Source of the DNA: Pomacea canaliculata | Lineage: Eukaryota; Mollusca; Gastropoda; Architaenioglossa; Ampullariidae | Assembly (NCBI RefSeq): GCF_003073045.1 | Contig: NC_037594.1 | Span: forward strand, 24,930,927 to 24,994,926 | Direction: 5' to 3' | DNA length: 64,000 nt | In this document: piece by piece, positions 18,701 to 53,900 of the stretch | Layout of the letters: each line of letters begins with the position of its first letter | Numbering within the stretch: position 1 is the first letter of the stretch | Made by a program: the position numbers and the translations under genes | Notes under the pieces: model-generated | Seen by the model: only the letters and a program-made list of their open reading frames with translations | Database searches by the model: none | Told to the model about the DNA's origin: nothing

Positions 18701-21700
18701 AAAAGTCAGTTCATGTCTCTCTCTCGCACACACACTCTAATGGGAAGAGAGAAATAGAGTTATGCACAGTAGTACTAGAAGATCAAGGTTCAAGAAAGAG
18801 TAAGTTTCTAAAGACCTTTTGAAAAAAGAGCGTTTTTTTGCGAATATGGAAGGGCAACTAGTGTTGTACAGATGTGTAGACCAAACATTTTCTTGTGACT
18901 ACAAGGAATGCCAGGGCTTGGAGGATCAGATGAGGAATGAAACGAGTGTGATCCTAATGCTAAACCAAAGATGGAATGAGTCGAGACTGTCAAGCATTAC
19001 AGCCCATTTATTTTTGTTAACCTTGTCGTCGGTATTTTGCGCCAAAGTCGACTCCGAAAATAAATTTGTGGTAATATTTTATCGATATAAGGACTTGTAA
19101 GGGTCACAGAGAAAATGTAAGGACCTGTGTGAGAATTTGTAAGGACCGCATGGCAAATATAAGGACTTATAAGGCCTTACGGCGAAAATTCAATATGTAA
19201 GGACTTATAAGGACCTTGTAAGGACCTGGGAACCCTGGGATCATCTTATGTTGTAGGTTTATCGGCATATATATATATATCTGAATATAGGAAACACCAA
19301 CTAAGAGATGTTGCTGTACAATCAAAAGTTACGTATTACCATCAGGCGCTCTGAAAGATTTATCATACACACTCTAAATTCTAAAATAACTGCATAAAAT
19401 ACAAACCCGTGGAAGTTCCTTCATCAGCTTCTTCCTAGCTTTTTCTTCTCGTAGCAGTTTCCCTCCCCTGTCATTGAAGAAACGATTAGGGTCACTGGCC
19501 TTTTTCTGCAAAGATAAAACATTAACCCCTGACCCAATGGTGTTACCCACACCTTTCATAAATTCTCAGTCTTTAGCTATACCATGCAGGTAGTTATATC
19601 AATAATAAATGCATGATTTAATGATGTATGATCATAAAGTAGCTAGCTCTCAGTGCTTGAGACAAGAATGAGAGATGGACAACATACAAAGAACAGGATT
19701 TAGCATACCAGGGACCGTGTCTGTTAGACTTCAATCTTTTCTGTCTTTCATGACGTGACCTGTTATTTCTAAGTTCTTAGGTGTCTCACTCTGATGTCAT
19801 ACAAGACCAATAGAAGATGGAACTGGGTGGGGGGGGGGGGGGGCGCATTGGTGTTTTACGCCGTGCCAGCAACTGAGGCTATATTACGGCAAGCAGCCAG
19901 CCCTGTAAACAGATGTCACGTGCAGAGAAAGAACAGAGTGCCCGAGACGAGAAATGAACTCTGGGCAGCCAACCTTCACTGTATTGGTGACAGGCGCTAA
20001 CAGCGCTAACCGTTGCACCACCGGGCCGCTCGATGGAACTGGGTAACAAAAAGGAAGGATTGAGAGTTTCCTGAATCTGCAGAGGGAGACAAGCAGGTGG
20101 ACTAGTCAACAAATGAAAAAAAAAAAAAATGTTAGAAGATGGATTAGCATTATGCAGACTGTTGTTAAAAGTAATGCTCAAGGAATTTTTAGTGCACGTT
20201 TAAAGGATTTGATAGTGGGTAGATAGCAGATATGGAAGGGGAGATAGTTCCACTGTTTTGCTGCATAGTAATTAAAATCCTGTGACTATATTTTGTTGTT
20301 CTGGTGGCAGGGATAGTTAGCATACGGTCATCAGATGAAGTACAGAATTGTCTGGCTGGGATGTAGGTGAAAATAAGTTCAGAGAAATAGTCAGGGCAGG
20401 AGCCTGCAAAGAAATTAAAACACAGAACAGAAATGTACTGGATGAAAGAACAGTTGGGTAGCCAGTACAAAAAATGAAGGAGAGGAGTGACATAGTCCCG
20501 TTTCATAGCTCTCAGTACCAGATGTGTAGGAAAGTTCTGTACTTTCTGGAGTTTATAAATACACCACCTTGACATCATGACTGCACTACCAGGGAGCTAG
20601 ATACAATAAAAATGGAGACAACGGCTTTAATTTTCATGAGGCAGGAAAAGCAGTTACAAAGACTGCACCAGTTTTCACTGAATTTTCTTCTGAAGGCAAC
20701 AGTATTAATAAGGGTTAATTTTCAAACTAGACAGAATGAAGGCAGATCTACTAAAGGAATCTGAGCACATTCTCTTGTACGACTGGCTGTCCATGGACAA
20801 AATTTCTTGGACTTCTTTTGGAAAACAAATTATGGTGACAAGAGAAAAGTGAAAGGCAAAAAACAGCAAATACCTCAAATTCTAGCATTTCTTCCCACAG
20901 CCTTTCTCGCTTGGCGATCAGCTCCAGAATATCCTTGTGCATTTCAAAATAAGATCTCATTTTTTCTAGTTCTTGCTCATGTACTTCCAGCAGTTCCTCT
21001 GTATAATTCTCTGCAAGTTTAACAACAGAAACAGCCACATTTAATAAAGTTCTCTTCAAGTATACAATATTAACCACAAGTTTTGGAGCAAGTGGATTTC
21101 TCTAAACTTTAAAGTATATTTCCATTCCTAAAACCTAATCTCCCACCAACTCACCCAAGGAAAGAAAAAAAGAAAATTAGCCTTATAAGAAGTTTAAAAC
21201 TAATGCTGGCTGTACTTTATGTCAGTTTTTCAGAAAAAGCTGCCTGTTCTCTTTCCATTCTTCCCAATTTAAGGATGATTTCCATCCCTATATATATAGT
21301 TTATGTGACTAACAATCATCTGGAAACAGATCATTTAGTTGTATAAATATGTAGCCACCATTTCCAGCAAGCTCAACATCAAAAAGTTTTCTATTATTAT
21401 GTTTAAGATCTGGCAAAAGAATTAAAGAAGCAAGTTCTAGTTGGGTTTTTTTTTCCCCCCAAAGGAAAGCTGCATTCTGCTCAGAACTTCTTAGGTTCTC
21501 CTGGCAGGAGCAAGGCACTCTAAAGATTCCTTTTATAACACTATGGACAAACTCAGAATCACAACTAGTTTTCCAAAAATGTATTGCAAATAGGTCTCAC
21601 CATTCTAAACCCCTGATTGTCAAAATGCATTTAATCAAAGCCTAGGCAAGAAATCCACTGTTGTCCTCAAAAAGATGCCTGCTCACCGTGGAATCAGCGG

Positions 21701-24700
21701 CAATGAGAAACACGAGTTAGCAAAGAAGGAATCACTATGGAACAGCCCCATACTAATCTGTCTTTTCTGAAGGTCAAAACCCCCATCCAACATAAATGAA
21801 ACAAAACTTTGTGAGCAAGAATTTTGGTCAATTTAAGTTTCAGGTCTTATTTAAAGCTACAAAAAATGCCTTTAGACAGACAGGATGTTCTTGCAGTCTG
21901 GCAGGTCTATTTTAGTTGTTTATTAACAAATGTTCATGAAGTGTGATCAAATTTATATTTTTCACACACAAACACAAAAAAATTATGGGGTACTCCAACA
22001 TTAAACTATCATTTTTTAAAGAAAGGGAAGAATAATAATCTCTACTGACCTTCTAAGTAAGGGAGGAAGGTATCCCTTTGCTCTTTACTGAAGTAACAAC
22101 GTTTCCACCAGTCCACCAGCTCACGACGCATCCCCTCCACAAAATGCTGAAGATTGTCATACTTGAGTTGCTCACAACGTAGGATCTCTTCACGTAAGCT
22201 AGCAGCCACACTGTTTTTATGACCTGGGTGTTTGGACTCAAACTCAGCTCTCTCTGACTGAGGGATGCCCAGTCTTTCCCAGAGAGCCCGCACCCGTGTC
22301 CACAAGTCTTGCACTGTCTGATGTAGCTCTCGATTCTTCTTTTCAAGCTGTTAACATGAATATCTCTAACTATACTAATTATACACTTTAATACACGTAC
22401 ATAAATTCTACCTGTAATTACATTTATCTTTCTTAACTGCAAATCCACTTTCAATTGCTTTCAAGACTTTCAAGCCCCATTAAGAGGCAGGATACACTAG
22501 TCAACACTGAAATTATTACTGGTAGCCTCATCCTTATGTTGGACTATTTCATTGCCTATACTATACATGACTTTCAACTTGATTGCCATTCTTCTCCACT
22601 TAAAGCCATAGTGGCCACCTTTCTGTGACTTTACCGTGACAGAGAGCAGCCAATGGTACCCTTTGTGAAACTACCAATCTATTTGACTTTACTGGCCTCA
22701 CATTACGGATTTTTTCCCAACCCCAGATGCCAAGACTGGGGATGATGACATAACAACAGATTACCTCCTGCAACAGTGTAGCCAGGGAACGCATGTTGTC
22801 TGTAGATAGCTGAAACATTTCGTCATCTTCACATATGAGGTCTCGTTCGAAAGATGTCTCTGGGTCATGGTCCATCTCATTGCAAAGGTCAACTATCCTT
22901 TTCTTGATACAGACAAACTCCCCGTGGCGTTTCTCCTGGTGAAATTAATTAGTTATTATTAATCATAAGGCAGTCTGCAGTGCTTATTTATAAGACTTCA
23001 ACAGATGTCAGCCAAAAATCAAGTAAACAAATAATATATAAAATCTTAAAAGATAGCAAAAAAGATGCACAGTGTGCCTTGTGGGATAATGTAAGCTCTT
23101 GTAAAAGTAGCATTACATGCAACATGAAAGTCTTGTTTAGTAGAATTTATTATTGTTGATCAGCGCAGAGAGTGTCACCTGATTTGGTTGTAATGCTATG
23201 CAATAAATGTGCTCTATAATTATTACTATTGATGGTGATGTTTGGTCCCTTTCCCCCATCTTTACCACAGATGGTACTTATTAAAACCTCAATGTGCTTG
23301 AAACAGAGTGGGAAAAAGAAGTATTACTGTAGAAGTGCAAACTCAAAAAAATTACACAAAAATTTAACTTATTTTTTTTAACAGATCACCTACTAGCTTT
23401 CTGGTGGACATTGTGAAGGAAATAGTCAAAAAATGATTCAACTGACCCTCTCAGCCTCCAGACTCTTGACATGGGTCTCCAACTCCTGCAACTGGTGACG
23501 TGATGGCACCACACCTGAAGGGATGTAATAAGGAGCAGAGCACAGCATCTCACACAGTCGCTGGTCTTCCTCGTGCAGCTTTTTTAATGTCCTCATGCGT
23601 TCCTGCTTTTCCCGATTCAATGTTTCTAAACGGCACCGCAGCTCTTTTTCACGTTGAACCATGGACACATTTTCAAGGACCTAGTACAAGACAAATACTG
23701 ACATAAGCAAATTTTTTTACTGTTTATATCTAGGGAAATTGCTATACCTGGCCAGGATTATAGAACCTATGTTACTGAGTAAATGATCTCATGAAGCAAA
23801 GCAACTTTAGTCTTCAATAGTTTCAGGAAAGTCATTAACTCTTTTTAGATTTCTTTTAGCTGTGTGCAGAGGGCACTTGACTTTGGAGCAGACTGGCTAA
23901 GGCCTTAGACCAGCAACTCCCCCTCCCCCATCCCACTTCCCAACCCAGCAGATCAAATAAAATAAAAAGGTGACAGGAGAGGGCTGGGCTCTAGATGTGA
24001 TGAAACTTACAGGTTACTGCCCAAATCCTTTTGTTTTAGCATTTCCACACTAGTCACAAAAGTTTAGTAAGAGATGTGCTGACAATAGAAGGCAAGACAG
24101 AAAAAAGGTCACAAAAATCATACTATAATTTTTTTTAAATGTACTTTCCCTTTATGCCTGATTTCATGTTAAGAAAAAGAGAAAAACATTGTACAGGTAA
24201 ATGACTCACATGTGTTTTGCAAAATACTTACTTTAGGAAGAGGTAAGGAGAGCTCCAGGCAAAGCTGAGACAAATCATCAACATAGTGCTGGATGTTGAG
24301 TGCCATCTGATCTCGCAGCTGCTCCTCCTCACTGACCATTTCTTTCATCAGGTTACACAGATGCATGGACACTGTACTGGCCCTGTTGCCCACTTGTGTC
24401 TCATCTATACCGATTTCTTGCCAGATAAGGTACAGCTTGTCCAGCGAAATGTCCAGTTTGCTGGTCACTTCATCTTTTATTTGTTTCTTGCTGAAGAAGT
24501 AGACAGAATCTTTTACTCATATGTGTATACAGCTGATGTGCAAGAAGGTATCTGTGTAAATAATTACTCTAATAGTAAGCACAAATCTACAGTTCAGGAT
24601 CTGGGTGAAAACCAAGACTGACAGTGCTATTTTATCTTGATGCTAAGAGATTAAATGTGTGTTAGAAATAAAATAAAATTTAGACATTATTGCTAAAATC

Positions 24701-28960: not shown

Positions 28961-30455
28961 ATTTCCTTACTCTCAAATTTCATGACCATACATACCTTAT
29001 TTCAGCAGTCAGTGGCGATAGATTTATTTTCACCCACTCGCTTACCGCTCAACAGATCACTAAAGTGTTGGTGACCAGATGTTCACCCAAGCTCGTGTGT
29101 TGTCAGGTGTTGTAGCGATGCTTCCACACAAGGTTGTTCTCTCAAGACATGTTACGTAAAAGGGGGGGGGGTAAGTTTCCGATCCACTTTAGTTTGGTTA
29201 TAAGTGTCATAGAGGCACAGGTGATGTACTTGGACACTGTACACCTATCCTAAAGCCACTCAGAGAAGCCTGTTGATATCACGTTTATTGGTTTTTCTTC
29301 AGCAGTCATTACAACTCAACTGCACCTCATGGCATTAAAACTCGCGGCGTATAAATTTAATTCAAAGTTAATATGTTGGATTATGAATTTTATATACACC
29401 AGAGCAGTCAGTATTCTAAAATGATGTTAACAAAATAAGTGCTATTTACAAGACAGAGTGGTTCATCTTAGCCGATCTCTATCAGGAGGCTGTTTCCTCT
29501 TCTAAATGAAGCACTGCTGCTCCAGAAAGTGCAGTCTAATCACCAGTATTATTTATATTATATACAAGAGATTGAAAGCCTTTGATGTCACCGCATGCCT
29601 TAAAGGGTACCACTAGCGAAAATCGCTGGAAATAGAGCATCAAGTATCACAAAAAATATTCCAGTGGTATTTCATGACAAAGAGGCACGAGAAATATTAG
29701 ATTAAATTTTATACTCTCAATCACATCTGGAGTACATGTATTCGAGAAAATATGAAGTGACGAAAGGGAAGTATATATTTGTTAAAATAGCCTCGTCTGC
29801 ATGAGCTCAATTCGACGAGAAAAGAATTCATCAGTAAAATCATCAGTAAAAGAAAGCAGACCAGGACACGACATGCTTTTGCTCAATGTTCTCTTCGACA
29901 CTCAGATGGACAGAGTGGCTAAAGATACTGGCTGCAAACATCAGTAGATTAACTTTGTCCAGACATTTGTATTATTATACACATCTCTGTTTTGTTGATA
30001 CGTGCCGTGCAAATTTCGTCCCCACATTGACTCAAGAATTTGCTGAAAAGCATTTCAAAACATCCATAAAAGCACCCTGTTTATGCTAGGGTGCCACACC
30101 ATCAACTCTGTTGACATCTTTCTGCACACTGCAAGTATCCCTTGCTTCTTGCAGAACTGCTAGCAGCATCCCAGCGTCACGTGACTTTATTGTTTGTTGC
30201 AATCATGACTCACACATGAAAGTCCGTTTTCTTCTTTCCATAAAGAGTTCTGCAAATATGGTGATCTTTGTGATTCGTTTCAAAGTGTGTATTAGACTTT
30301 GTCTTCTCTGACCTCATTGTTTATATGTATGACATGGATGACAGACCATCTCTGTTATCTTGAGCAATACCCCTATCATCCAACACCTGTAACAAACTTT
30401 GTAAATGACATTTTAGCGTGCGGTGAGAAGTTATTTAGGGATCTGAAAACTTTCG
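28961..30455. other. Intergenic DNA downstream of the BTB-NPH3 gene
   Basis: No coding region or element was recognised. A run of G residues lies at 29162-29170. A minus-strand AATAAA at 30191-30186 is about 530 bases after the BTB-NPH3 stop and could be its polyadenylation signal. Confidence 0.4.
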
Positions 30456-30635
30456 ATATTCTATAATATCTATTTCCAGTATTCTGTATTACATATTTCC
30501 AGTGTTCTGTATATTCTGTATCATTTCCAGTATTCTGTAAAATATATTTACAATATTCTCTATTCTGTAAAATATATTTTCAGTATTCTGTATTATTTCC
30601 AATATTCTGTAAAACATATTTCCAGTATTTTATAT
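30456..30635. repeat. AT-rich minisatellite, unit about 23-30 bp
   Basis: Seven or so degenerate copies of ATATTTCCAGTATTCTGTA, about 90 bases beyond the BTB-NPH3 stop codon. It is probably transcribed as part of that gene's 3' UTR. Confidence 0.78.
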
Positions 30636-30722
30636 TTGGCTGAACAGCTCCACGAGCAACATGCGAACCGGATGTCGGTGTATTGCAGGAAAATTCTGTC
30701 TGTGACCTTTAGGCCTCCAGGT

Positions 30723-33700
30723 CTAATATTTGGGAGAATATGGGAAGTATGTGGAGCGATAATGAGGTTGATGGTGATGATAGGACGACGATGAGTTATA
30801 GCTGCTGTAAGTGCCAAGGGGTCGCGAGCGGGCACGGGGGTCAAGACTGCGGAAAGAGCGGTCAAACTTGAAGTCCAGCTCGTCTTGCAGGCTGAAGTCG
30901 TGCTCAGTGGTCATGTGACTGGTGTGCGGGTGCAGCAGACTGGAGGACGGGTAGGAGTGTGGATGCGACTGAGACGACGGCCCTGACGAAGGCGAGTGCA
31001 GTTGCATGGCCAGCTTGGTGCGGGCAGAGGTCAGCACACTGTGTGACCCGCGCATCAGTCCTGAGGTCGAGTCGGGGGTCAGCTTCACGCTGTCTCGTGA
31101 GTCGGAGAAGCCTGCAACAATCCCGTGTAGTTAGTGTGTTGGTTATGAGAATGTCACTGAAAACATAGTTTAGTTTTGTTGCTATAGTAATGTCAGGACA
31201 GTGTGTTGACTAGAGTGTTGTTAAGTGGTGTGTTGACTGCGGTAATGTCAGTCAGAAGGGTGCACTGGACAAGTCTGAGTCCCACCCACTGACCTGAATC
31301 AGAGTTGGTTGAGGGGACGACTGGTGCGACCCTGGGTGATGCTTGGGGAGTGGCAGCTGACTGGTACTTCTGAAGTTCCTCTTCCTGCATCTCCGCAATG
31401 TACTTCACCGACTGCAGCTCCGACCTCAGGCGCGCGCACAGTCGTAACGATGCACCTGCCAGGAGTTCGGGAGGCACCAACTGAGAGTCCAGTGCACGCT
31501 GGAGTGTGTCCTCCGTCAGCAGGTCAAAGTTGACGATGCTCACCAGCTGGTGGCGCTGCTCGCTGCTGACATCGTCCTCTTTTATGAGAAGGTAAACAGG
31601 GTGAGGGTTAAGAAAAGTGGTGAAGCAAAGACGTTTGAAGAAGCTTCATCATTTGTTTTTAAGATGCTTTCAGCTGCATGCAATTCGAAACACACAGAAA
31701 TCTGTCTTTTGTAACTTCCGAAACAGTGAACATTCAAACACGTGTATCAATTGTTTTAATTAGATTTCTGTAACATCTACTACTTCCAAAATAACAAAGG
31801 TAGAAGCATGTATGAACTGGCCTCTCAGAACACTAAACATGAAGAAACGCCTAGTAACGTCCTCTTCTATATGAAAAGGTAAGGATGGAACGATATGTGG
31901 GAAAGGTTAATTGTTAATCTTAAGAGGTCAAGGTGGAACTGTGTGTGAGAGTGAGACTTGGTTCATTGTATCGCACAATGTTAGACAGGTAACTGTGTGT
32001 GAGTGATCTGTTTTTATTGTTATACAATGTTATACCTCACAATGTTTGGCACATAAGCGGGTGGCGGAGCGGGAAGGAAGCAGGTCGAGAGGATGAGATT
32101 CTCACCATTTTTGAGTACATACTCCAGTATGTCGTACAATTTGTCATGGCAACGTCTGGCATCAGATGGCACTGCTGTGGCCAGCAGTCGAAATGTGTCT
32201 GCTGTCAGCACCCCTTTCCGCGCCATTTCGCTCAGGTAGGTGTCGACAAGAGTGCATGCACGCTGCACGTGACCGTGCTCTTCACGTGCCTCTAACACCA
32301 CGTCGTGCAACATGGAGGGCGAGACGAGACACAAGTCGGAGGCGTTGAGCTGCTGCAGTTTGTCCGCCGCCAGCTGCACCAGCAATCGTCTGCAACTACA
32401 TCCTCGGGTACTGGCCACTCGTAACACCTGTTGCCAGACAAAGGGTAGTTGTTACAGAAGGTAGGTGTCCAGAAACACACCCACGGAAACAATCTGGCAC
32501 CCACAGAGCAACAGATAAACACGAACACACAAAGAAGCTGTGACAAAAACACAAGCAAGGACAGGTGAGAGGAACTGACCGTTGTCAGGCACTCCATGGA
32601 CACAGACTGCACGTTGTAGGCTTCCTCTGGCAGCACCATCAGCACAGCGTCCAGAATATGCTCTAGTTCTGTGTGATGCTCGCTGATACGCAGCCCACCC
32701 ACACCAGTGGAAACCTGTGCTGAGTCCTTGCCTGCCACATCGCCCTCAAGGTTGCTAGAGGAGTCTTCCTTCCCTCTGCTTCTCTCCTCTCTGTTGTCTT
32801 TGGCACTCAAAGTGTCTTCGGCGTTGCTGCTCTGCTCGACATCCTTGTCAACAAAGGTTTTATAGACGTAGCGCATGGCCAGGTCAGCAAGTGGGGACAA
32901 GCGGACTCCTCTCTCTCGAGCTTGCGAGAGTAGTCTGACCAACCAGTCCTGAGGCAGACCGCACAGGCGCTGCAGTGAAGCCTCATCCAGCAGCTCTGCG
33001 CCGGCGGAAGTGACGCCAGGTGACGCTGCCAGCGGTTTGAGGGGCGCGAAAGCGCTGCCCAGAGCAGGTGGGGTGCTGGTGGTCGGGGAGAGCTTGGATG
33101 GCGTCTTGAGCCACGTGTCCACCAGGGCGTCGATCAGCACGTCTACTATCCCGGCCTCAGCCGCCAGCTCGCCCACCTTGACGCACTCCATCAGCAACAT
33201 CACCAACGGCTGTGGGGCGCGACTGAGCTTACAGGAAGTCACGGTGTCCTTCAAATATTATCACATTAACACATCATTATCTCACCATCCTCATCCATCC
33301 GACAGAGATTCTGGGCCAAATGCAAAGTTTGTGACACAGAGTAGAAAATAATGCGGTTTGTACAGCATGTGCATTATAAAATAAACAAAATATGATATGA
33401 AATAAACTCAATACAATATCAAACAAACGCCTTTGGGGGTAGAATTTTAGGACTCGGTTACAGACACAATCCTGCAATATTCTTACGGTTCATTACGTGA
33501 AGAAATGGTTTTTTTTTTAATATAAACGCAAGATAATACATTTATGTGTAAAGATCCAAGCCCTTAGCTAGATGACTGACTGACCACCAGACACTTGTCA
33601 GCAATGTCGGCCAGGTTGCCAGGCCCGAACATCCGCAGCTTCTGAGCTGCACTGCGCAGCTGTACGACGTTATGACGACCCACGTCCAGCGCCATGTTGT

Positions 33701-34444
33701 AGCAGAAGTCCGCCACCTGGCTGAAAACGGCCTGGCCACCTGGAAAGTCCGATAGCTCCACACGCTCACTAAGCAACAGCACACACACAAGCTGGCATCA
33801 GGATAGGTCAGAGGGCAAGTATGAACGTCTTTCCATAGGTCCCAGTCAAAACCTTTTCCAATGTGTCATAAAAACACATCTTTTCCGTGAACATGCTACT
33901 AAAAAAAAATAAGCTATTCTTTATCCACCCTTCTCTAACTTTTGATTAGTCTGTCCTGCCAGATATCCCTCCATTGATTACTTTTTAGATAACTCTTTGT
34001 CGTTACTGTCCGTTACCTCTGAGTCTTCTCTGTCTTTGATACATCATCATTATCACTTTGTGCTCCAACAGATTAACTCAGCTTTTGTAGTCATCGTTTA
34101 GTTCATGTTGCTATATGAGCCTGATACTGCGTTATGTACATTGCACGTCGACGACGACGACGACGACGATGATGATGATGTCATGATGATGATGTAATCC
34201 TATTTATTTTTAAAAAGCATTGGTCTTTCTCTTCTTTTGCAACTGGTGGTCCTAGCGAAAGTACTAACCTGTTCCCTTTGAGGGCGGGAGTTTGAGGCTC
34301 TCCACAGCCATTGTGTCTGGCCAGACTCTCGAAGAAACTTGACCGAGCGAAGAGAGGAAATCGATGCAAATGATTTTCGTTGCCTTCAACAACAATCACT
34401 ATGTCGGACAGGTCCCCTGAGGCGCGGAACTTGGACAAATCCAT
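30723..34444 (-). CDS. BTB domain protein with plant-type NPH3-like region
   Basis: Six coding exons: 34269-34444, 33585-33768, 32580-33248, 32106-32427, 31294-31578, 30723-31111. All junctions are GT-AG and phase-consistent; 674 residues. BTB (about 1-110): LSDIVIVVEG...HLHRFPLFARSS, then VELSDFPGG..VFSQVADFCYNM and LRSAAQKLRM. These are the signatures of plant NPH3/RPT2 BTB domains (SDI.VEV..FHLHKFPLLSRS; LPDFPGG.E.FE..AKFCYG; LRCAAEYLEM). NPH3-like region (about 213-505): LPQDWLVRLLSQARERGVR, then LEHILDAVLMVLPEE, LVDTYLSEMA, FRLLATAVPSDAR...DKLYDILEYVLK, EQRHQLVSIVNFDLL and a terminal LRLCARLR, colinear with plant NPH3. A charged linker (256-308) splits the domain. A short coiled coil (about 505-525) and a Ser/His/Tyr-rich tail follow. 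BTB proteins of this type are CUL3 adaptors; the substrate here is unknown. Start at 34444 by BTB alignment. Confidence 0.9.
34145..34196. repeat. GAC/GAT trinucleotide microsatellite
   Basis: (GAC)n followed by (GAT)n, in the intron between the first two BTB-NPH3 coding exons. Confidence 0.9.
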
Positions 34445-38919: not shown

Positions 38920-41900
38920 TTAGTGGTGTTTCTTAATTTCAGGTGAAAAATATAGACTGCTGCCTTTTCTGGTGCCTGTCTGTGCAGGCACCTGCATTCG
39001 ACGTAGACCCTCTTCTTGTGATGTTATTAAGAAGTTGTCAAAATCTGCTATGCCATATGATTCTGTGCCCAGAGCTGCAAAACCATTTGCTGGTGAATTT
39101 GGGATCGAAACATTAAACAGTACGTTGTTGTTGACTGATCCAATGGCTCCTGTTTTCTGGTGAAAGAAACAGTAATATTGTTTGATTGATGGAAAGAACA
39201 GCTCATAATCATGCATGCACGTACGTGTGCATGAATGCACGCACATGTGCATGCGCACACACATAGTTCATTGAAACAGGTTCCAGTAAAATATAATGCA
39301 TCCTACTGACTCATGGTAAAAAATAGCAAATGAGCTGTCAAATAATTGAAAATAGTTCAACTTACTGTAATGAGAAGAGAAAGTTTATTCCAGACTGACA
39401 GTGATGTGTTGATATTGCCGGACACCACATTCTGAGTGTGAGCTGTTAACAAATAACACCTGGTGTAAGGGTAATTGATCTTGGTCATGAAAGACCCAAC
39501 ACACACACACACAATACAGTGTCATGAAAATCTGTAGAGATAATGTATAATTAACTTCTGATCAACCAATCTACTGCAATTTTAACCATTTAGACATTAA
39601 ATGCATAGGCAGATGTGGCAGGCTTAGGACTTTCTAGAGCTGGAACATGTTATCTATGCTCATTCATCCCACCTTCAGTCCAGAGACACAATCAGCTTAA
39701 ACACACACGACTGCTGCTTTCTTCCAATCTTGAGCATGGTGTTTATTTCATACTTGTATCTGGAGCATGGTGTTCATTGAATACTTTTTTTACTTTTGTC
39801 CCATATTGACGTACATAGGGCGTGCCCTATTATCTGTGCTGTTTAATATTTTTCTGGAGAACATCATGCATTAAACCCATTACACATTTATTTCCATTGG
39901 TGGTAGGCCGATTTGCAGCCTATACTTTGCAGACAATTTTGATATGATAGCAGGTTCTAGCAGAAAACCTTATCAGCAGACTGTCAGTTTGAACCCATAT
40001 GGAATAGAGACCATCATTGACAACAGTAAAGTCCCGGCCATTGGCAATGGGAAAGCAGATTTGACTGGTAAGATGAGAACAAATATCTGGCCGTTACTTC
40101 CTAGATCTACAAGCCTGCTGTAGTGCTGCAGAACAAATGTTAACTACTCTCTTGTAAGCTGGCACATTCAGGACTTTCTATTCTAAGTGACTTAAGTCAA
40201 AATGTTCCTAATGAATGAGCATACAGGCCACAAATCAGGATGTTGCAAGAAGAGGGAAACTAAATGTTTTTCCATTACTAACCATTTTGCCTGAACTTGT
40301 CTGCAAATGAGATTTCTATTTTATTTCTGCACAGCACATCCTAATACTACTGAAAATGTGCTAAGAGCATGAGCCATCAAGCACAAACTCTGGTGACACA
40401 CACATACCCAAATCATAGGAAACAATGTAGCGCTTGGTTTGAGGGAACAGGAAGAAAAAGATGCCTTTGGCTTCATATGCATCACACCCTCCATTCTGCA
40501 CTCTGGCTGCAACGAAGACTCCATTAGTGCCGTTGACCGCTCCAACTGCTGCATCTACTTCTACATAGATGTCAGTCCTGCCAAACAGTAACAAAACATT
40601 GTTATATCCACCTCAACATATATGTCAGTTATATAGTAACAGCACAGTGTCATATCCACTTCAAAAAAGATACCAGATGCTATGACAAACATAAACAGCA
40701 GCACAGTGAGCAATGTTACATTAACTGTATTACAATCTGACATACTAAATAAAAGCAATAAAATTAATTTAGTAAAAGTAATTTTACAACCAGATGAACT
40801 AATTAAGTATCATAACCTGAGACAGTGACAAAGTTATCATCTGATGTTCTCTACAATGGTGCCAAGCATAAAAAACTATCTCAGCAAAAGTCAATAAAAC
40901 TGAAAATAAGTAGTGCACACACTAACGCTAAGCAGAACAGTAGATGGCAAACTTATGACTCATGAATCTTTCATTACATCAAGTTGAGGCCAGGGACTTG
41001 TGATACAGTAAAAATAGTCCCGATGCTCTTGCATTGAATATTCTGAAGAAAGTATATCAAAATATATCTGCAGACACTCTAGCCAGCAGACTCTCCCATG
41101 TCCTGAATTTTTAGGTCTGCACAGATTGGTTTTCAACATAAAATGACCTCTGACTGGCAGAGATCTTCTAAATGCAGACACAGATATTTTAAGGACAAAT
41201 TCATCCCTTTACCTGTCACAAGCATACAGTGTTTAGTTCCTGGCAATGTCACCCATATTCAATAGTGCATATGAATGGTGCAGCCCAGGGATTTACAGTT
41301 TCTCCCATCTCCCATACTCATAAGAATTATGGGTTTCCAATTGCACCTCTTCCTGTTATCAAGTAACAAGTATGATAATTTTTTGAAAGAAAAGCTGTTT
41401 GCAGTCTGAAGGAGAAGAATCATCTCTTTACAACAGCAGATAAAGTGGGTTGGAGAAGAAATAAAGTACTTAACTGTACTATGGAAGATGAGATAGGAAA
41501 GAATGTCCTCAAGAAACAGTCACAAGTGATATCCTTCTCCAAAAAAGGAAACATGAGAACACCAAAGCTTAGAAACATGAGTATCATTAGCAGCCCAGGC
41601 AAAGTGATGCTGACAGAAGCCCTCAGTTATTCCAATTCAGTACATGGGACTTTGTAGAAAACCTGACTGGCAGAATCTCGAAAAGAAGTTCAAATGTTGC
41701 ACCCTAAAAGAAAAGTATTTGCAGCATCAGCAGAATGTATGACATGATGGGCTGTGAGAAATGAGAAGGGTCTGATGCCAATGAGGCATAGTTTTACAAC
41801 TTGCAGTTTGCAGATGATATGATCTCATAAAAGGTTGTAACGATGAATGTCAAGTCCCACAGACTGACAAAGCAGAGGGAATGGAACCTCACACTCAACG

Positions 41901-44900
41901 AAGCAATATGTGAGGGATAGGCACTGCTCTAACAACAAAGCTGATCTTGAGAAAATTATGGTCTCTAATATCTCACACAAAGGTCACAAGACTCTTTTCA
42001 GCTTTGATTTTCTGTCAGCACAAAATATACAAATCTCTCAGTTTCCATCCCATTGCCAGAAACTCCAGAGATGGACAATGCTTGTTCACACACCTAGGAC
42101 CAAGCATCAGATGAAGCTACACAGGATTTCCTCCCATGAATAAAGCAACAAGCATGTATGGAGCACAGATGCCTCTCTGTTTGCCTCTGACTTACCAAAC
42201 ATGGGCAAGATCTGATTAGAGTCCACTCTTAGTTCTCCTTGGCTACCGGTTAATGATTATTTACAACTCATGTGGCCTTCATCAATGAGCTTTTTATTTG
42301 GCTGATTTGGTTTGGGTAGATGTGTTTTATTTTTAAGGATTATGGTCTAGCTTTGCAGGTGTGTTTCACTTGTCAAGGATCTGTGTCTAGCTTGGTTGGG
42401 CTGTGTTTCACTTGTCAAAGATCAGGGACTGGCTGGAAGTTTCTTGTTCTTGTCCTAACCCTTAGCTCCATTCTTGCAACATGTGTAATGTTTTATAACT
42501 CGTCTGATGGTTATTTTTTTTTTTCTCTTTAAGTAGAAATGAAGGTGGAAATGAGAATGTTAAGTATCCTCTTAGATGACCACTACCTGTGAAATATATC
42601 TGCACATAGAACATGCACACACACACAAACAGTAACATCAACAAAATATACAAGCACATAGCACACACACACACACACACAAACTATAGCACCACCAAAA
42701 TATATAAACATATAGGACACATACAAACACAAATACACGCACCAGAATAAAGGTGAAAAGACATGATGGACATGTGAAGCCACGACCAACCTACCAGTTG
42801 CTGTTTCCCCCAAGTGTAATGGGAAAGACGAGCCTGATGGGGCACCATTGTATGGGGTTGTGCAGTACTACCTGTCTCAGTACCTTGCCATGACCAGGAT
42901 CTCCTGTGGCTAGCACCTCAAACGCCCCAATCTGTTGGGCTAAGTTATACGGCTCTGCATGCTCCGTGTAGTCTGACAAGAGGCAAAGGGCAGGAAACTG
43001 TAATCTTTCTATGGGGTGCATCATCCCTCCTGTTTATCTGCTCTTCTTCTCTACCTCTTCTGCCTATAAGCACTCTCTCATTTTCTACTGTGATGATAGC
43101 ATGTGTCTATCAGCAAACTGCTGCAAATCTAATTTTACCACTCTGACAATTGCACCTCTCTACCAGTAATTAGATGTGATCTCATGTCTCCTGCTATTCA
43201 ACTGCCTAACTCTTTCAGAGATAAACCACCCATAGCTTTAGTGGTTTAACATGCTTTGCCCATGGTCCTTTAGGAACTGACCCTACTTATGATGACTGTT
43301 CCCAGCTTGAACTGCATCTACCTAGTCTCCCTCCTCCCCTGATGACTAGTACAGGCAGTGACCAACAAGTGGATGACGATGATGCACTGCTCACTGTTAT
43401 TTTCTCCTGTCACCTAAAATGCTTCGTTTCTCTACTGTTGGGTTAAGTCTATGATACTGATCATTTTTTTTTTATATTCCCAGTTCTATGATTATGATCA
43501 AATTCTCATAATATTCCTCTATTCCTATTTCCCTCCTGCTGTTACACATCTCCCCTGATACTCACTGCCCAAACAGCTACTAGTTAACGGACACTATGCA
43601 TCATTGCAGGAAATACATTACAGCCATCAAGCAGAGATATGAGCAAGCAAGCAAGCAAGCAAAGCAGACATGCAGAAAAGGCAGCTGATGTTTAGCAAAG
43701 CATGCCAAAAGACAAGAAACACCTGTGACAGGTAGAAAAGTACAAACATTGTCATGCATGCTAACAGAAAAACATTATCCTTGACAGCTAGAATGGTATA
43801 CAGACTGTGACTGAAGTTCTACACATTTGCAGTCTGTATACACTTACAGATTGGGACTGGAGTTGTGTATATGATTAGACTGTGACTGGAGTTGTATATA
43901 AGTACAGACTGTGACTGGAATTGAACTTATCAGCAGACTGTGACTGCAGTTGTATATATGTATAGACTGTGACTGGAGTTGCATATATCTACAGCACAGA
44001 ATGCCACACACTTGGTGTACAGACTGACTGGAGTTGTCTGTATCTAAAAAAATGTGACTGGAGTATATATCTGCAGACTGTGCACATTAAATTCTGTCAT
44101 TTCAGTCGGTGTAATCAGAACTTGCTCGGGCTTTTCTCAAATCAAAGTGTGTGATGCTACAGCAAATCCCGACTTCTAATCAATGCATCTCTCTCTAATA
44201 ATGAAACAGAATTCTGAGATTTAAGCAGCTTCTTCTTCCAACAGACCTGCAGTCCTCTTCCAGCTGTTTGGCACAGAGCAGCCTCTTAGACCTAATAAAC
44301 CTGAAAAGCCTTCTTCTAGCTGTCTGGCATGGAACAACTTGAAACTTACAGAGTTGTGTCACCTTTTTCTAATCTTAATAAAGTTGACCGATACTGAAAG
44401 AACTGCCTCATCTTGTTAACATAATAATAAAGTATACTTGCACAGTGCAATATCCCAGACCAAGAGACAAGCTCATGGAATTTTACAAATTTCTATCAAC
44501 ACCACTGTTCCAGTTATAGAACAGATGAAATAGGCGTGAGTTTTTTTATGTTCATAGGGTTAGCAAAATATCTCTTTGAAAAACCATAATGCATATCTAA
44601 TCTTATTACGGCTGGTGCAGGGACCATAATGCATGTCAGATCTTATAACAGCTGGTGCAGGGAAATCACTGAACCAGCTTCCTGTATAACTCTACAGACC
44701 GTAGCCTGACAAAGCTACCTACATCTGACACATCTACTACTAGATGCTGTATTTAAAACTTTTAAAAAAAGACTAATTATAACTACTGTCTGCAGTTGAC
44801 CTGCTGTACCACAAATACTTGACCACTTGACCACTTGACCAATTGTGAATGTACTGTCTGTAGCTCACCAGCTGTAATTTCCAATCATATTAATGGCAGC

Positions 44901-47900
44901 ACCATATGCATTTTTTTGGTCAGCATCACACCAGGCCACAGGACGCTGCAGCATCATCTGTCGTACCACTTTGCCATGAAGAGCATCTGACTGCACTATC
45001 TCAAATGACCCTGTCTGCTGGGCCAGGTTAAAGGGCTCTTGGCTTAGTTGGTAACCTGGCATTAAAAAAAAATCAGTAATTCTGATGACAATATTCATGG
45101 TAGCTCTACTTGTTCACACAATATGATTCTCCTTTCAGTAAGTTTTTGAAGTTTAGCTCTTTAGGCTCACACTTTCTGTAGGATCAGACTCGGAAGCTTT
45201 GTCCCAAGTTATATTTTCATTGAGTTCTAAACTTCCCTGACTTAAGTTTGGACAACAAACAAGGTACAAATGTCACAAAGGCTATGCTTATGATTTGAAT
45301 GTAAACAGATTAGTTACATTACATGTACATAGGAAATTCATGTTTACTAACATCTGTTTCTGATTTTATAAAGTATGGTTTTTGTCTAGCAAGACTTGCT
45401 CTTAGAGTTTATAGATATGTTTTTTTTTTTGTCTGCCAGCATCCATTTTTAAAGTCAAGACCAGACACTATTCTCAAGTTTATTCTCTGAGAAGATCCTA
45501 TTAATGTAATTGTCTTGACAAGACATACTGCTGGGAAATCAAATGTAGCATGTAATTGATTTGTCTGTTCTTTCCTCCCTTGACTGGTATCTGTTGACCA
45601 ATGGCTATGTTGATCTGATCCACCACCAGTTGGTGCAACTTACTTTGTAGTGGTGTGGTGGCTTGCATGCCTTGTCGATCCACAGAGCTATGTCAGTGGG
45701 AGCCTTGTGCTCCTGGCAGGTCTAACCAAACCAAACAGGTCTGTCAGGGATGAGGCCAGACTAAAATGTTGCACCCTGGCCCTCCAGGTTGGGGGTTTTG
45801 CTTTGGGCTAACAACCCACTCATGTAAAAACAAAAGCTGTTACAGAAACCGCAACAGTACCACAACAAGGGCCTGGTCAGGAAGATTCCTCTCTAGAAGA
45901 GATTATGACACATGCTGGTGAAAGCCTTAGGATAGCCAGCTCACCGACTCATCTTTTGAGGACCAAGGCAAGAACCGGGATAGTGACAATGGAACATCAG
46001 AACCCTCAATGAAAGTGGCAAGTCAGCTCAAGTGGCAAGAGAAATGAGAAAATACAACATCAGGGTTCTCGGGAAACCAGATGGAATGGAAGTGGCCAGA
46101 CCAGACTAACATCAGGAGAAACTATTATTTACTCTGGCCACAAAGACCTGAACAAGACCTAATGTCAACACAGGCAACAAAGGCACTGATGGCCTGGGAA
46201 TCAGTCTCACCACCGCTCATGTCAGCAAGATTCAACACCAAAACATCATCCAATGCTATGCCCCAACAACTGCAACAGAGGAAGAGGAAAAAGAAGACTT
46301 TTACAGTTCCATGCAGTCTCTGCTTGACCACACACCAAGAAGAGATCATGAGATCATTATGGAAGACCTAAAATGTCCAAGTGGGAGATGATAACACCAA
46401 CAGGGAACTCATTGTGCGTTGGAACCTGCAACAAAAATGGAGAGCTCTTCACAGACTTCTGAGTTTCAATGACCATGTCATAGGTGGGACTGTGTTCCCA
46501 CACAAGAATATACACAAGACAACTTGGACTTCCCCTGTTGGCCAGACGGAAAACCAGACTGACCATATAACAGTTGCTCAAAAGTGGAGAAGGAGTATTC
46601 AAGATGTCCAAGTGAGGAGAGGTGTAGATGTTGCTTCAGACCACCAGCTCCTGGTGGCAGTCTTCAAGACTAAGCTGAAGTCCTTCATTGATCCAGCAGG
46701 CAGACCACACCACAAGTTCAATACTCAATGCCTCAAGAACAAGGAAACAAGGGAAATTTATAGCTGTGAAGTCAAGAATAAGTATGAGGCCCTTTCAGGA
46801 CTGACAGAAGAAATACTGAAAGAACACTGGTAAACACTCAAGAGCATTTAGAAGACAACCTGTACAGATGTTCTAGGGAAGAGGGAAAGAAAACACAAGG
46901 AATGGGTGACTCCAGAATGAAGACTAGCGTAAGACAGGGTTGCATATTATCACCAACAATCTTCATGATGGTGATAGACTGGATTATGCGCAAGACAACC
47001 CAAGACAACAGCACTGGTATCCAGTGGACCTTCACCAAACAGTTAGAGATATTAGATGACATTAGTCTCCAATCTCACCGGCAACAACATGCACAAACCA
47101 AACTGAGTAAGCTAGTAAAAGAAGCAGAGAAAACTGGCTTAAAGGTCAACAGAAAGAAGACCAAAGTGATGAGAATCAACAACAAGCAGGAACTCCCAAT
47201 CCAAATTCAAGGACAGAGCATCCTGGAAACAGACCACTTCACGTATCTGAGGAGCACTGCCAACAAGGCCAAACCAGACCAGCTTATACCACTTCCCTGT
47301 CAAGCAGATTCTACCTTTCACATCCATGCAGAAGAATGGGAACCATGGGGGATTTTGTAAAGTCTGTACTTTACTGTAGGATGATGGACCTTGGTGGCAA
47401 ACTGCTGTGTCTCTGTTCCAATCCTGATGTGGATGTCTGTAGTGCAGGTGTCATCTTTGGAAAGGGTGGCTCCAAAATACTTTAATCTCTTTATCTCCTC
47501 AAACTCTGCCTTGTTGCTGCTGATAGTGTTAACCATGACTTTGGTCTTGTCAGAGCTGGTCTCTGTTCCATATGTGCTTGTACAGTCTCTCAGACAAAGT
47601 GCTGATGATGCTATCAGACTGAGGTCTCCTCCACAGAATAGGTAACATAGAGGTCTCCCACTGATGATACCTATCATCAGATCAATGTTTTCTGTGCAGA
47701 ACAGGTAACTCAGAGGTCTCCCGCTGATGGTATTTGAGATGTGATGTACTGTCTTGCATATTCTCCAAGAAAATGTTAACAGTACTGGCAATAAGGGCAC
47801 CCCTGGCAAATACCCCTTTTTGTCTGAAAGAAGTCTTGAGATCAGTTGTTGAAAAAGTACTGCACATCTTGAGCTCTTGTACAGGGTTTCCATGACTTGA

Positions 47901-50900
47901 ATCCCTCCTCTATCTTGAAGTTTTGCTTTACATGCTATAGCCCCTTGTACCAGACTGCCATTTTGTTGAATTCAGTGAAGCTGTGAAAGATATCTGACAA
48001 GTGCTGCAATGCTTTTCGTTCAATGCGACCTGATCATACAAAAGCCCTACATATCACAACACCAGACTAGATCATGCTAGTGACCCATGTGACAGTAGTC
48101 TAGATCATGAAAAATGTCTGCATTATATTAAACAGGTCATGTATACTAGTCTACAGAAAACTATTACAACAAAAACTAAGCAAGCAGCTGGCAAACAGGC
48201 AAGCAGAGAAGTAAATAAACTAAAACATGTCATAAACCATCATGCAAATGTTGATAAAAAATAATTAGAATGAAACTGTAAAAAACTAAATGATGGTTCC
48301 ACTGATCTTTTTCTCTTTTTCTAGTAAATGAGCAATAATCTGGTATGCAGCAGGGTGGTGAAGTGAATAAATCTGAAAGGTTCTTCCCCACTCCTACCAC
48401 CTCCGCTGTGCTGTGTTTCAAGGCTTACCGTCCCTACACCTGCTCAGCAAAATTTTCATCTAAAGTTTTGCCAGGTGGAGCCATGGCTTCTACACAGCTC
48501 TACATAGTGGCTACAATACTAAACTTGGTGTCTACAGAACTCTTCAATGTAACATCCCACTTTCTATCTACATCGCACTTAACTAGCGGCTACAACTTGC
48601 TGAGGACTTTTTTGTAATTATGTGCACAAAAGCAATCAAGGTCTAATCTGTTCCAAGCACAAATGTACATGTTTTCTGAAGGTTGTCAAAATTTACTATC
48701 TATTCTGAGTATTTAATTTACAGAGGAGGTTCAGCATAATTTTAAAATGTCAGGTATTAAAATACAAATATGACAGTTCAAAAAGTACAACTGCATTTAA
48801 AATTTTCTTTTTAGTGACATCTTGTTAAATTATGATACTGGTTATAAACAAATATTTTTCGTTTGCAGATGCCAACATGTATTGATCAAAAGATAACATA
48901 ATATTAATGTGCCATTTATTTGTATCAATCATATTTATTTTTTTAATAATAACTAATTTTTATTCTTTAATGTAAAGCCTTTTCCAATGGTTACAATGCT
49001 CCAGAAATGTGCATATTAGTAAACGATCTTAGACATGGACTATCTGCCAAACAAGACATGACCTTGACATCTCTTCAGGAAAATCTATGTGTTGTACACA
49101 CACCCAGCCACTTACAGACATTACCCACCCACGGTAAGATATTTTGGGGCAACTGATCAGAAGACTTTAATCATTTACCCTGAAGCAGAAAATAGGTTTA
49201 ATACTTTCCCCCTTCCCTCATGTACCAGGGCTTCTGCTTACGCAAAATATTGCGTACTGTATGCATTAAAAGTTCGGAGGACCCCTTCAATTTTCGTCAA
49301 TGGGGTCCCCTTCAAATTTGGGCAAAGAACAGGGACCCCTTAAAATCTGAACAAGGGGTCCCTGGGACCCCAAAGAATTTAGCCTTAACAGAAGCCCTGT
49401 GTACATATTTTATTTTTTATTGTCTTCAGAACTTGTTCTTTTACATGTGTGCTCCTTGCTTGTGTGTTCCTACCTTGTTCTATCCAAAAACAAACAAAAA
49501 CAAACTCTAAAGCAAAACAGCTTAGAGGATTAATGTCTAAAGTACAAGAAAGCGGGACAACATAAATGTCAAGTTTGCAAGTTAAGGAAGTCCAGTTAGT
49601 CTAGTGTTACTACTGAAGTGAGCAGAAAGTGTGGAACATAAATAAATTACTGAGTGTGTCACTAGTAAAAAAAAAAACAGAAAAAACTGCTTACTTTGTG
49701 ACAATAAAGTGTAATTTCTACACAAGATATGTTAACATGCACACCTGTGGAACAATGCTACTGAGCTGTACTCACTTTCAAAGTTGTCTGAATATGGCAG
49801 TGGGAAAGGCTGGGATGGAGGCGAAGGGTTGTACTGTCCCTTCTGACCAGTGCTAAGAGTGGTCAGCGTGTAGACTTCATCAATGCCCAGTGACAGTGTT
49901 ACCTGACTGTTAACCACCTGCACAAAATTAACACCCTCAGACTTTTGAAATGGAACTTTTTTTGTTTGTTTGCTGAAGATTTGTGCCTTCAGTCTTAAAA
50001 TGTACTAAAATGTAGATATTCTATATAAACAGATATCTAAGTTTACATCAAGTGAAGCTATATCACAGCCTGTAAGCAGGTGCTACATTTAGAGAGAATA
50101 TATTTACATTGTCAGCAACTGAGGCCATATCACAGCCTGTAAGCAGGTGCTACATTTAAAGAGAATATATTTCTATACAACACTTAAAGATCACACTCTA
50201 CAAGAGAAGCAACACTTTACCTGCCACAGAAACTGAGAGATAACTACTTCCTGGCATTGTTTTCTTCTATAACCTGCCATTCACAGGCACCAATTCTTTT
50301 ACTCCTAGTTATACTCTAAGCCTTAAACATTGTCTACGCAATGTAGGGCTCTGCAGACATGCAGTGACGATGGAACTATCTACATTTAATTATCCTAGTG
50401 TGACTTCTAATGTGGTCTTGAGAATATCTTGCTACATAGTTTTACCACTGCATTTGATAGCATGGTAATATGGCGCTAACTGCTTGAGAGGTCAACTGCT
50501 CAGCTGTTTGTTTAGCTTTGTTTGATCTCTTAACAGGCTTAGAAATCATGCTGCAAATCTGTTCCTGGATGTATTTTCTCATTTACAGTGGATTTTCCAT
50601 GTGTTTTTGCTTCTCCAGTCTGCAGTTTTGCATTCTCAATGACCTTTAGAATTTGACTACGATAAGAGAGATTACAGAGATCATACATTCTTATTCTGTG
50701 GAAGCACATCAGAACAAAAGATAATATTTCATATTCCACTTTTAGACTCTGCATAAATAAAAGAAAGCAGTTTGTAGTGACGTGCGATTTACTTGTTCAT
50801 GTTCAAGGCACTTACTTTCAGTGGCTGGAGGTTCTCAAACAAGATTGAAGATCTATTAACAAAATCAAGTTTGCTGTACCATACATTCAGCTGCTGTATA

Positions 50901-53900
50901 GTGGCCTGCATGAAAGAAAGAATTTTTCAGAAATAAAAAAAATAAACTTGACCTTTAACTAGGTTACAGATACAGAGCCAGTAACAACATACACTGAGGA
51001 ACAATTTTTGAGGCATAACACAGAGAATTATGTTTTAAACATAGGAACACTTAAGGGAATATATTTAGCATCGCAAGCAGAAATAAAATTTAGGGTTAGG
51101 ATTCGGATTATCAGAAAGGGATATGTCTCGGGTATTTCACAGCACAAATACAGAACTCTACTTTTCATCAACTCATAAAAGTCAAAACTTACAAAGGAAC
51201 CAGCTAGACTGATGGTAGCATTTTGAGCTGTCACACTGTACGCTGGCAGATATGGGCGGATACAGAAAGAGTGATCATGACTCTGAAATAAAAAAATGGT
51301 TTTTCACAGTACACATTTATGGTGCCAGGTCCTTAACTCTCAGCAAGCAGCCATCATGGTGAATACTACTTTGAGCTTAGTAGGGGTGTCTTAGATAAAT
51401 AACACTGAAAATAACAAATAAAAATGTTGCTCAGAAATGTCTCTATCAGAGATCTGAAAATTAACAAAACCCTTAGAATTAACAAACTGGTAACCATCCG
51501 CTGGTCAGGGCAGAAGATTTCCAGTAACAGGACCAAGAGAGGCAACCTTCTGTTATAAAGCTGAGTACTTTGACCATCAGCTTACAACACCTCCCACTTT
51601 CAAGAATAAGAGCACACATTAGTGTACAAGAATATCAACAAGAAGTAGGGAACAAATCGTCAAAGACAAGCTAATGTGAGACTATCTTTGTTGTCAACGT
51701 CTATACTCACCAGCATTTCTATGATGAGAACGAGTCTACATTTACCATAGATTTATGATGACAGCAAGGTCCTTAAATCTACATTTACAATAGATTTATG
51801 ATTAAAGTCTATACTCACCATGGTTTCTATGATGATAGTGAGGTCCTTGCCATCAGGACTGACCAATGCGACGTAACTGCCACCATTTTGAAGCTGTCCA
51901 ACACCAGCCCCATGAGCCAGGTATTTCCAGCCAATCTCAGTAAACTGTGTAGTGTGGGCTGTCAGCACAACAGAACCAGAATCATTATGAAACAAGTCTA
52001 CATCTTTTACAACAATCCCACTTTTTTCCATTTCCACACATACTATTCTAATTCTATAATATTCCTCCCTGTTATTTTGTCTATTCTATAACTGGTAGCC
52101 TGTAAATTAACTCATTTTAATACTTACTATTTCCCATTTCTGCAAGTACTGTTCTATAATTTTCCTGTTTATTTGCCTATTCTACAACTAGTAGTAGCCT
52201 GTAAATTAACCCTTCATAACTGAACTACCTGAAAGCCAGATTGGTGTCTCCACTATGTAGTTTCCACTCCAGGGCTCCACAGCAGTCATCAGACCATCAC
52301 GAAAGAATGGCAGTGGATTATAGTAACTGGCAATCAAATTCCAAGAGATGGTCCTGCAACACAATCAATAGTATGGGAGGTTTACTGTAATAATTACCAT
52401 CCCCAACGGTTCCAAGAAACAGTTTTAACATAATATAGTTTTATAAAACAGTAAAAACTCCAAGCTAAAAGATACTTGTGTAACAGTGAAGGCTGTAAAT
52501 AATGTTCCTGAATGCAATAACGTTAATGTGATATTTTTAACACAAAAAATGTTACTGTCACCAGCATGAATTTCTGTGAATGTGGTCCTATGACACAAGA
52601 ACTGTTGGTATCAGCACAACCTACAGTCAACAGTTAGGGAAGAGATTTCTGCCAGAGTTGGCAGTCCTAGAAGCTGGTAATATCTGCTGATAGCAGATCC
52701 CCATGTGACTCGAGCACCACCAAGAGACAACTACTATATTATTTGCCAACTTCATTTTCTTACAAATTCTTTTGGGAAAATACCATGGAAACCCAGTAAC
52801 TTATTTGTTAAATTACATTTTTGCACATGAAAAATTATACCACTGTCAATTGATGAACATTGAAAGCATCTCCAACTACAATTTATTTTTAAATTGCAAA
52901 CTGGACTGTGCTTTCATAAATAGTTATGGTGATCTCTTCAATAATTCTGGTGACGCTTGTTTGTTAGAATCCAAACCACTGATGCAATTCATTATTGATT
53001 CATAATGAGCGCTCCTGTACACCCTGAGTTTCTCCTTGAAGATGCTTTTAATAACCACAGTCTGATTGTTGATAAAACTATTTCAGCAAATTTATAAGAA
53101 AACCACCCTTAGAATGTTATTACAATGCTTGTGCAACACACCTAAATGACACAGGAGTGGATTTTGAACAAAATATATTTCTGAAAATGATTCTTTAGAA
53201 TTTTTTTTAGGAAATATGTTGAGCAACTGATTCCTGGTTTGGTTGTATGGATGTGGTACACACTGGGTTTGTTGAGACAGTATGATGGTAAACTTTCTTT
53301 GTTCTTTGCATATGGTAAGATGTTAGATTATTAATGTTTTATCCCTTCCTTACTGTATCTGTGACTGTACTGAGGTAAAAGAACTTAACTGTGTGCGAAA
53401 AATGTTTTTGATGAATTACAGACATTAATTGAACAGAAATGGAAGACATAAAGTTTATTAGATACACAAATGCGACATTTCTATTAACTGACATGTCCTT
53501 CATCTTTACTTGTAGTCTCTACCAACAGTCTGGATTGGGGATCTAAAGGTACATTTGCCACACTACTGAATATGTATATAATGTTAATTAGATATACAGA
53601 TCTCTTTGTTTTCTTGTTTACTGAAATGTCCTCTTCATTAGTAATCTTCACGAAGTCTGAACTTGGGATCCAAAGGTACATCTACCACACTACTTAATAT
53701 GTAGATAAAGTTAATTAGATACGCAGATCTCTTTTTCCTTATTTATTGATATGTCCTCTTCCTGGTTCCTGTTCTCTTTCATTCACAACATTACTAAATG
53801 TTGGTAAGATCTTATTCAACCTTATTCACTCTGACATGTCTTTACTTTTACTTTACTCTGATAGGCAACTGATTCAGGGATACTTTGTAGAAATCCAGCA

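Follow-up and report, generated by a model that had tools for sequence, protein, structure and literature searches.

How a protein made of a BTB domain followed by an NPH3 domain comes to be encoded in an animal, and what it might do there, is the question raised by a gene in the gastropod Pomacea canaliculata. The window analysed is a stretch of 64,000 nucleotides starting at position 24,930,927 of contig 5 (NC_037594.1), in a genome of 440,159,624 bases in 24 contigs; coordinates below are positions in this window. Plant NPH3 proteins are needed for growth toward light, and the animals carrying this gene are not known to have auxin PINs or phototropins. Passages in three papers call the NPH3 domain plant-specific or have it arise at the origin of plants (PMC1257465, PMC4327156, PMC8112251), and no paper on an animal NPH3 protein was found in searches of the Creative Commons-licensed PMC literature, some of which were loosely set and carry little weight. 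These printed statements are contradicted by the reach of the family across animals. With rather more confidence than doubt, we place the snail gene in the BTB-NPH3 (NPH3/RPT2-like, or NRL) family, as an animal member inherited since at least the cnidarian-bilaterian ancestor and probably since before the plant-animal split; its product would be a dimeric BTB scaffold, in the ancestral animal probably a CUL3 adaptor.

The predicted gene model lies on the minus strand (34444-30723) and joins six GT-AG exons in phase into an uninterrupted frame of 674 amino acids and a stop codon, which reproduces the length and exon number of the initial annotation.

34269..34444, minus strand: exon 1, start codon and first half of the BTB domain (residues 1-58 plus 2 bases; donor AG/GTTAGT; homologue alignment)
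33585..33768, minus strand: exon 2, second half of the BTB domain (residues 59-120; acceptor CTTAG/T)
32580..33248, minus strand: exon 3, BACK-like post-BTB helices, linker 1, N-terminal part of the NPH3 domain and linker 2 (residues 121-343)
32106..32427, minus strand: exon 4, C-terminal core of the NPH3 domain (residues 344-450), overlapping the best PF03000 stretch and the sole NPH3 match in the genome
31294..31578, minus strand: exon 5, end of the NPH3 domain, probable coiled coil LRSELQSVKYIAEMQEEEL and start of the tail (residues 451-545)
30723..31111, minus strand: exon 6, tail with DELDFKFDRSFRSLDPR, terminal YFPYSPKY and stop codon

The introns thus sit after residues 58 (phase 2), 120 (phase 0), 343 (phase 0), 450 (phase 1) and 545 (phase 1). 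A second model of the exon 1/2 junction, with an upstream CAG acceptor and a weak donor, also keeps the frame open (683 residues before the stop); it was set aside in favour of the first because the aligned homologues have no counterpart for its nine extra residues.

Both domains are recognised by Pfam in the 674-residue protein, which bears out the BTB-NPH3 identity first proposed from the letters: BTB (PF00651) matches at the N-terminus with an E-value of 7.4e-11 and 42.7 bits (cut-off 20.5), and NPH3 (PF03000) with an E-value of 1.8e-20 and 74.2 bits (cut-off 27), the best stretch being residues 394-474. Neither BACK nor Kelch is among the four Pfam families that match the snail protein at E-values up to 10, so that the outcome that the initial annotation had named as fatal to its proposal, a missing NPH3 score or a better match to a BTB-BACK family, did not arise. 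A coiled coil follows the NPH3 domain in many members of the NRL family, and the stretch LRSELQSVKYIAEMQEEEL in exon 5 is probably one; in the predicted model of a Haliotis relative, a long helix (residues 438-478) lies in the stretch that aligns with plant sequence. The tail of the snail protein is probably disordered. Sequence searches started from the snail protein or from a Brachypodium one brought up no solved NPH3 structure, their matches being BTB domains only.

The gene is not peculiar to this snail. A full-chain search gave 18 proteins, the named ones being gastropods and two scallops, of which 16 cover at least 97% of the snail chain; identity reaches 55%, the value over the full length for the closest relative found, from Batillaria. 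Two profile searches followed the family further out, each scoring about 8,000 candidates, and the best 120 of 482 and the best 120 of 477 matches, many of them unnamed, were considered. With a profile built from five molluscs, the family grows to include oysters, mussels, clams, Solemya, a limpet, a nemertean, two annelids, a hemichordate, octocorals and trematodes, all ranking before the first plant (E 3.7e-38); the other profile extends it to rotifers, one more hemichordate, one more nemertean and the sponge Oscarella (E 8.4e-58). Relatives were therefore observed in eight animal phyla (molluscs, annelids, nemerteans, rotifers, flatworms, hemichordates, octocorals and one sponge), and members of five of these pass the PF03000 cut-off directly (a mollusc, annelids, a nemertean, rotifers and a hemichordate). 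No named vertebrate, arthropod or echinoderm is among the matches listed in either profile search, which is weak evidence of absence, and scans that depend on short patterns confirmed none of 88 pattern matches in prokaryotic genome contigs and none of 35 in viral contigs. Several relatives already bear automatic names, namely ‘root phototropism protein 2-like’ (Gigantopelta, Xenia), ‘DOT3-like’ (Mya) and ‘At5g48800-like’ (Haliotis rubra), which were probably copied by similarity from plants; the three mollusc records (Gigantopelta, Mya, Haliotis rubra) are very likely orthologues of the snail gene.

The relation to the plant proteins extends along most of the chain. A comparison by hhalign of 36 animal with 23 plant sequences gave a probability of 100, an E-value of 3.8e-59 and 444 colinear columns at 27% identity, a span that takes in the BTB, the NPH3 domain and the helix that follows; the snail itself is absent from the animal profile and is 55% identical to one of its members (row P0001). 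Within the BTB domain, the landmarks LHKFPL, FPGG and NVV.LRCAAE.L.M are common to animals and plants. The main tree was built from 53 rows (30 animals and 23 plants) after removal of six long-branched ones (Oscarella, two rotifers and three trematodes), and the trees use only a minority of the 176 proteins found; the plant rows are the top matches of the animal profiles rather than a balanced sample, with no moss or charophyte recognised among them. Animals and these sampled plants stand on opposite sides of a 100/100 branch that recurs in 200 of 200 bootstrap trees. The snail itself falls with Batillaria, Nucella and Littorina (100/99), within gastropods (100/99) and molluscs (99/99). The same main split, with a Shimodaira–Hasegawa-like approximate likelihood ratio support of 100, is seen in a 59-row tree that keeps the long branches and in which Oscarella was flagged by a warning. 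Of the two origins offered by the initial annotation, these results favour an old family that many animals have lost over a transfer with later intron gain, given that relatives occur in eight phyla and the gene tracks the main groups in the tree. In the NPH3 region of Schistosoma turkestanicum P0090, residues 442-532 score 20.0 bits on Pfam BACK (cut-off 20.9), a hint at a possible distant relationship between NPH3 and BACK.

The C-terminal end tells a different story from the core. Residues 601-674 of the snail protein are 52-62% identical to P0001, P0002, P0004, P0005, Haliotis and Gigantopelta, while linker 2 is only 9-22% identical to the same six gastropod-side rows, and the tail identity falls to 29 and 34% in the bivalve Mercenaria and P0014 (gaps uncounted throughout). 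An [RK]-hydrophobic C-terminus like that of the snail is found in 27 of 28 named molluscs (the sole row without it, P0061, is a 340-residue model), in 3 of 15 other named animals and in 1 of 65 plant-side rows. A Y[FWL]P[YF] motif within the last 24 residues occurs in all 15 gastropods and none of 13 bivalves, and a slightly wider form of it in four of 15 other animals (two hemichordates and two octocorals) and in none of the 65 plant-side rows. In these counts 65 of 69 rows, some unnamed, were taken as plant-side, the other four (P0138, P0139, P0143 and P0152) being omitted as unlike plants even though they fall among plant rows in the second profile search. Two unnamed rows, P0080 and P0084, were treated as animals. 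A C-terminal RxS or mode III 14-3-3 site is present in several plant members without being family-defining; it is absent from the snail protein, which ends in PYSPKY. According to parts of one paper, 14-3-3 is bound by plant NPH3 through a phosphorylated RxS site at its C-terminal end, the mode III site being pS/pT-X1-2-COOH (PMC8531357). The tails of many plant-side rows are S-rich at the end (HSIS, for example), unlike those of the mollusc rows. Judged by sequence, then, the core appears common to both kingdoms and the control end does not, so that ‘plant-type’, the term first applied to the snail protein, is apt for the shared BTB-NPH3 order and not for the rest, animals having their own side of the tree, their own C-terminus and no plant 14-3-3 site. 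We lean slightly towards a fuller version of this history, in which the BTB-NPH3 adaptor would predate the plant-animal split, would have been put to a use unrelated to phototropism in early animals and later lost in several well-studied groups, and in which a C-terminal control code evolved by the animals themselves ([RK]-hydrophobic in molluscs, with a motif of the Y[FWL]P[YF] type shared by gastropods, hemichordates and octocorals) would take the place of the plant 14-3-3 site.

Two further features of the tail region were noted. The string DSGFSDS, which we take to resemble a beta-TrCP-like degron, is present in the tail of 8 of the 14 gastropods listed, the snail included, and in none of 12 bivalves, and was rejected as a family feature. 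The hemichordate rows P0072 and P0123 and the octocoral or octocoral-like rows P0084-P0089 carry an extra C-terminal region of about 100 residues with a [YF]WP[FY]-type motif near the end; this region is beta-rich and poorly folded in the model (block pLDDT, the predicted local distance difference test, 34-61), and no Pfam family was found there in the three proteins scanned.

A genome-wide search with the NPH3 model, in which three candidates were scored, found one place only, exon 4 of this gene. The claim that the gene stands next to ordinary animal genes holds, since exons of MAP65/ASE1 (presumably PRC1 in animals) and of galactocerebrosidase lie on either side of it on the same strand.

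3560-5011, plus strand: reverse transcriptase open reading frame (ORF) of 483 amino acids (RVT_1, 124.5 bits), apparently a long interspersed nuclear element
20754-24516, minus strand: MAP65/ASE1, three matching ORFs, likely exons of one gene, downstream of the NPH3 gene
38923-58195, minus strand: galactocerebrosidase (GH59), three domain-matching ORFs over 19 kb, upstream of the NPH3 gene
46788-47360, plus strand: putative second reverse transcriptase fragment, an ORF judged by eye

An ORF at 46372-46830 that overlaps the last of these has no Pfam match. Just downstream of the stop codon of the NPH3 gene, at 30440-30640 on the plus strand, repeated CCAGTATTCTGTA-like units were seen by eye.

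How might such a protein work? The BTB domain would dimerise, partner proteins would be held by the helical NPH3 region (its first part BACK-like) and the probable coiled coil, and the tail, probably disordered and with a conserved C-terminus, would be a regulated or docking part. Several observations weigh against an old CUL3 adaptor inherited since early animals. When rooted on plants, the tree sets molluscs against all remaining animals and unites octocorals with hemichordates (99/99). This departs from the species tree, and might stem from a misplaced root, hidden paralogy or old features held in common. The two octocorals tested score 22.6 and 23.4 bits on PF03000, where 27 are needed, and Oscarella and Schistosoma give no Pfam NPH3 match; because of this, octocorals, sponge and flatworms are counted as members by profile search and shared landmarks. 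No named protist is among the matches listed in either profile search, so that an origin before the plant-animal split is one that we infer. As for CUL3, no phi-x-[ED] contact motif is seen in the snail BTB at the alpha3-beta4 loop, nor in 25 of 28 named molluscs; it occurs in three of the 28 and in 4 of the 14 other named animals read, these four each having D in place of the E of the published motif; P0123 (M-V-D by eye), P0058, P0092 and eight plant-side rows were unreadable by the pattern. Finally, the BTB and following helices in the predicted models of two relatives (one from Haliotis) match CUL3-bound BTB-BACK chains, but in the fold lists BTB-only rows rank level with BTB-BACK ones, which makes the likeness to BACK no more than suggestive, and no match extends past about residue 314 of the Haliotis model, the lists being uninformative on the fold of that part.

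The absent motif carries little weight either way because a loose pattern finds it in 13 of the 57 plant-side rows read and the other 44 are without it, and in the portions of text concerned, plant NPH3 is described as a CUL3 substrate adaptor (PMC13075204) and KCTD-type BTBs are reported to bind CUL3 without a phi-x-E motif (PMC13061254). By analogy, a role as CUL3 substrate adaptor is probable for the ancestral animal protein, and for the snail protein the chances of CUL3 use appear evenly balanced. The missing motif would also suit a possible, though less probable, explanation, that of a CUL3-independent membrane or polarity scaffold that groups transporters or kinases, like plant MAB4/MEL, with no delivery of substrates to an E3. 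Conservation of the tail and coiled-coil region among gastropods is in line with such a scaffold, as is the report, in sections of one paper, that MAB4 binds the PIN2 loop via its BTB or NPH3 domain, and the kinase PID (PMC8112251). It is countered by the retention of phi-x-[ED] at the alpha3-beta4 loop in some deep animal branches, by post-BTB helices that in the models seem to resemble CUL3-bound BACK domains and by the indecisive nature of a motif that KCTD-type BTBs and most plant rows also do without.

The origin of the gene admits other explanations as well. An ancient horizontal transfer between an early streptophyte and early animals, in either direction, with introns gained afterwards and the gene then passed on vertically, could account for a list whose named rows are animals and plants only; it is nevertheless unlikely, for presence in a sponge, octocorals, hemichordates and spiralians, whose common ancestor is dated before land plants, would push the transfer back before land plants, and in a plant sample made of top matches the animals branch off outside every row except a deep one of Selaginella, rather than inside a plant subfamily. 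Ancient inheritance is thus likelier than ancient transfer. That the protein arose by an independent fusion of a BTB with an NPH3-like helical domain, or is a diverged BTB-BACK-Kelch protein, would agree with the BACK-like appearance of the first post-BTB helices in the models and with the Schistosoma BACK score just below cut-off, but is highly improbable given that the BTB itself carries landmarks shared with plants, that the whole chain is colinear with plant proteins and that the snail protein has no Kelch or BACK match. Plant contamination or an assembly artefact is refuted, the locus lying at 24.9 Mb of its contig between animal genes and having full-length relatives in other snails, the closest 55% identical; contamination and recent transfer are excluded.

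An animal branch offers a route to the root function of the NPH3 domain, whose molecular action is stated as unknown in one part of a paper that then reports binding to the PIN2 loop (PMC8112251): residues kept in both kingdoms would point to a shared role and the rest to kingdom-specific ones. The single NPH3 gene found in this snail genome would make a knock-down readable. Set beside known systems, the animal proteins have the same order as the plant NRL family (NPH3, RPT2, MAB4/NPY and others), with an N-terminal BTB, an NPH3 domain and a probable coiled coil. In KBTBD2, KLHL3, SPOP and poxvirus A55, a BTB is followed by helical hairpins in an arrangement similar to that in the models of the two relatives; the snail protein differs from these in having no BACK or Kelch match in Pfam, a longer NPH3 region and no recognisable phi-x-E.
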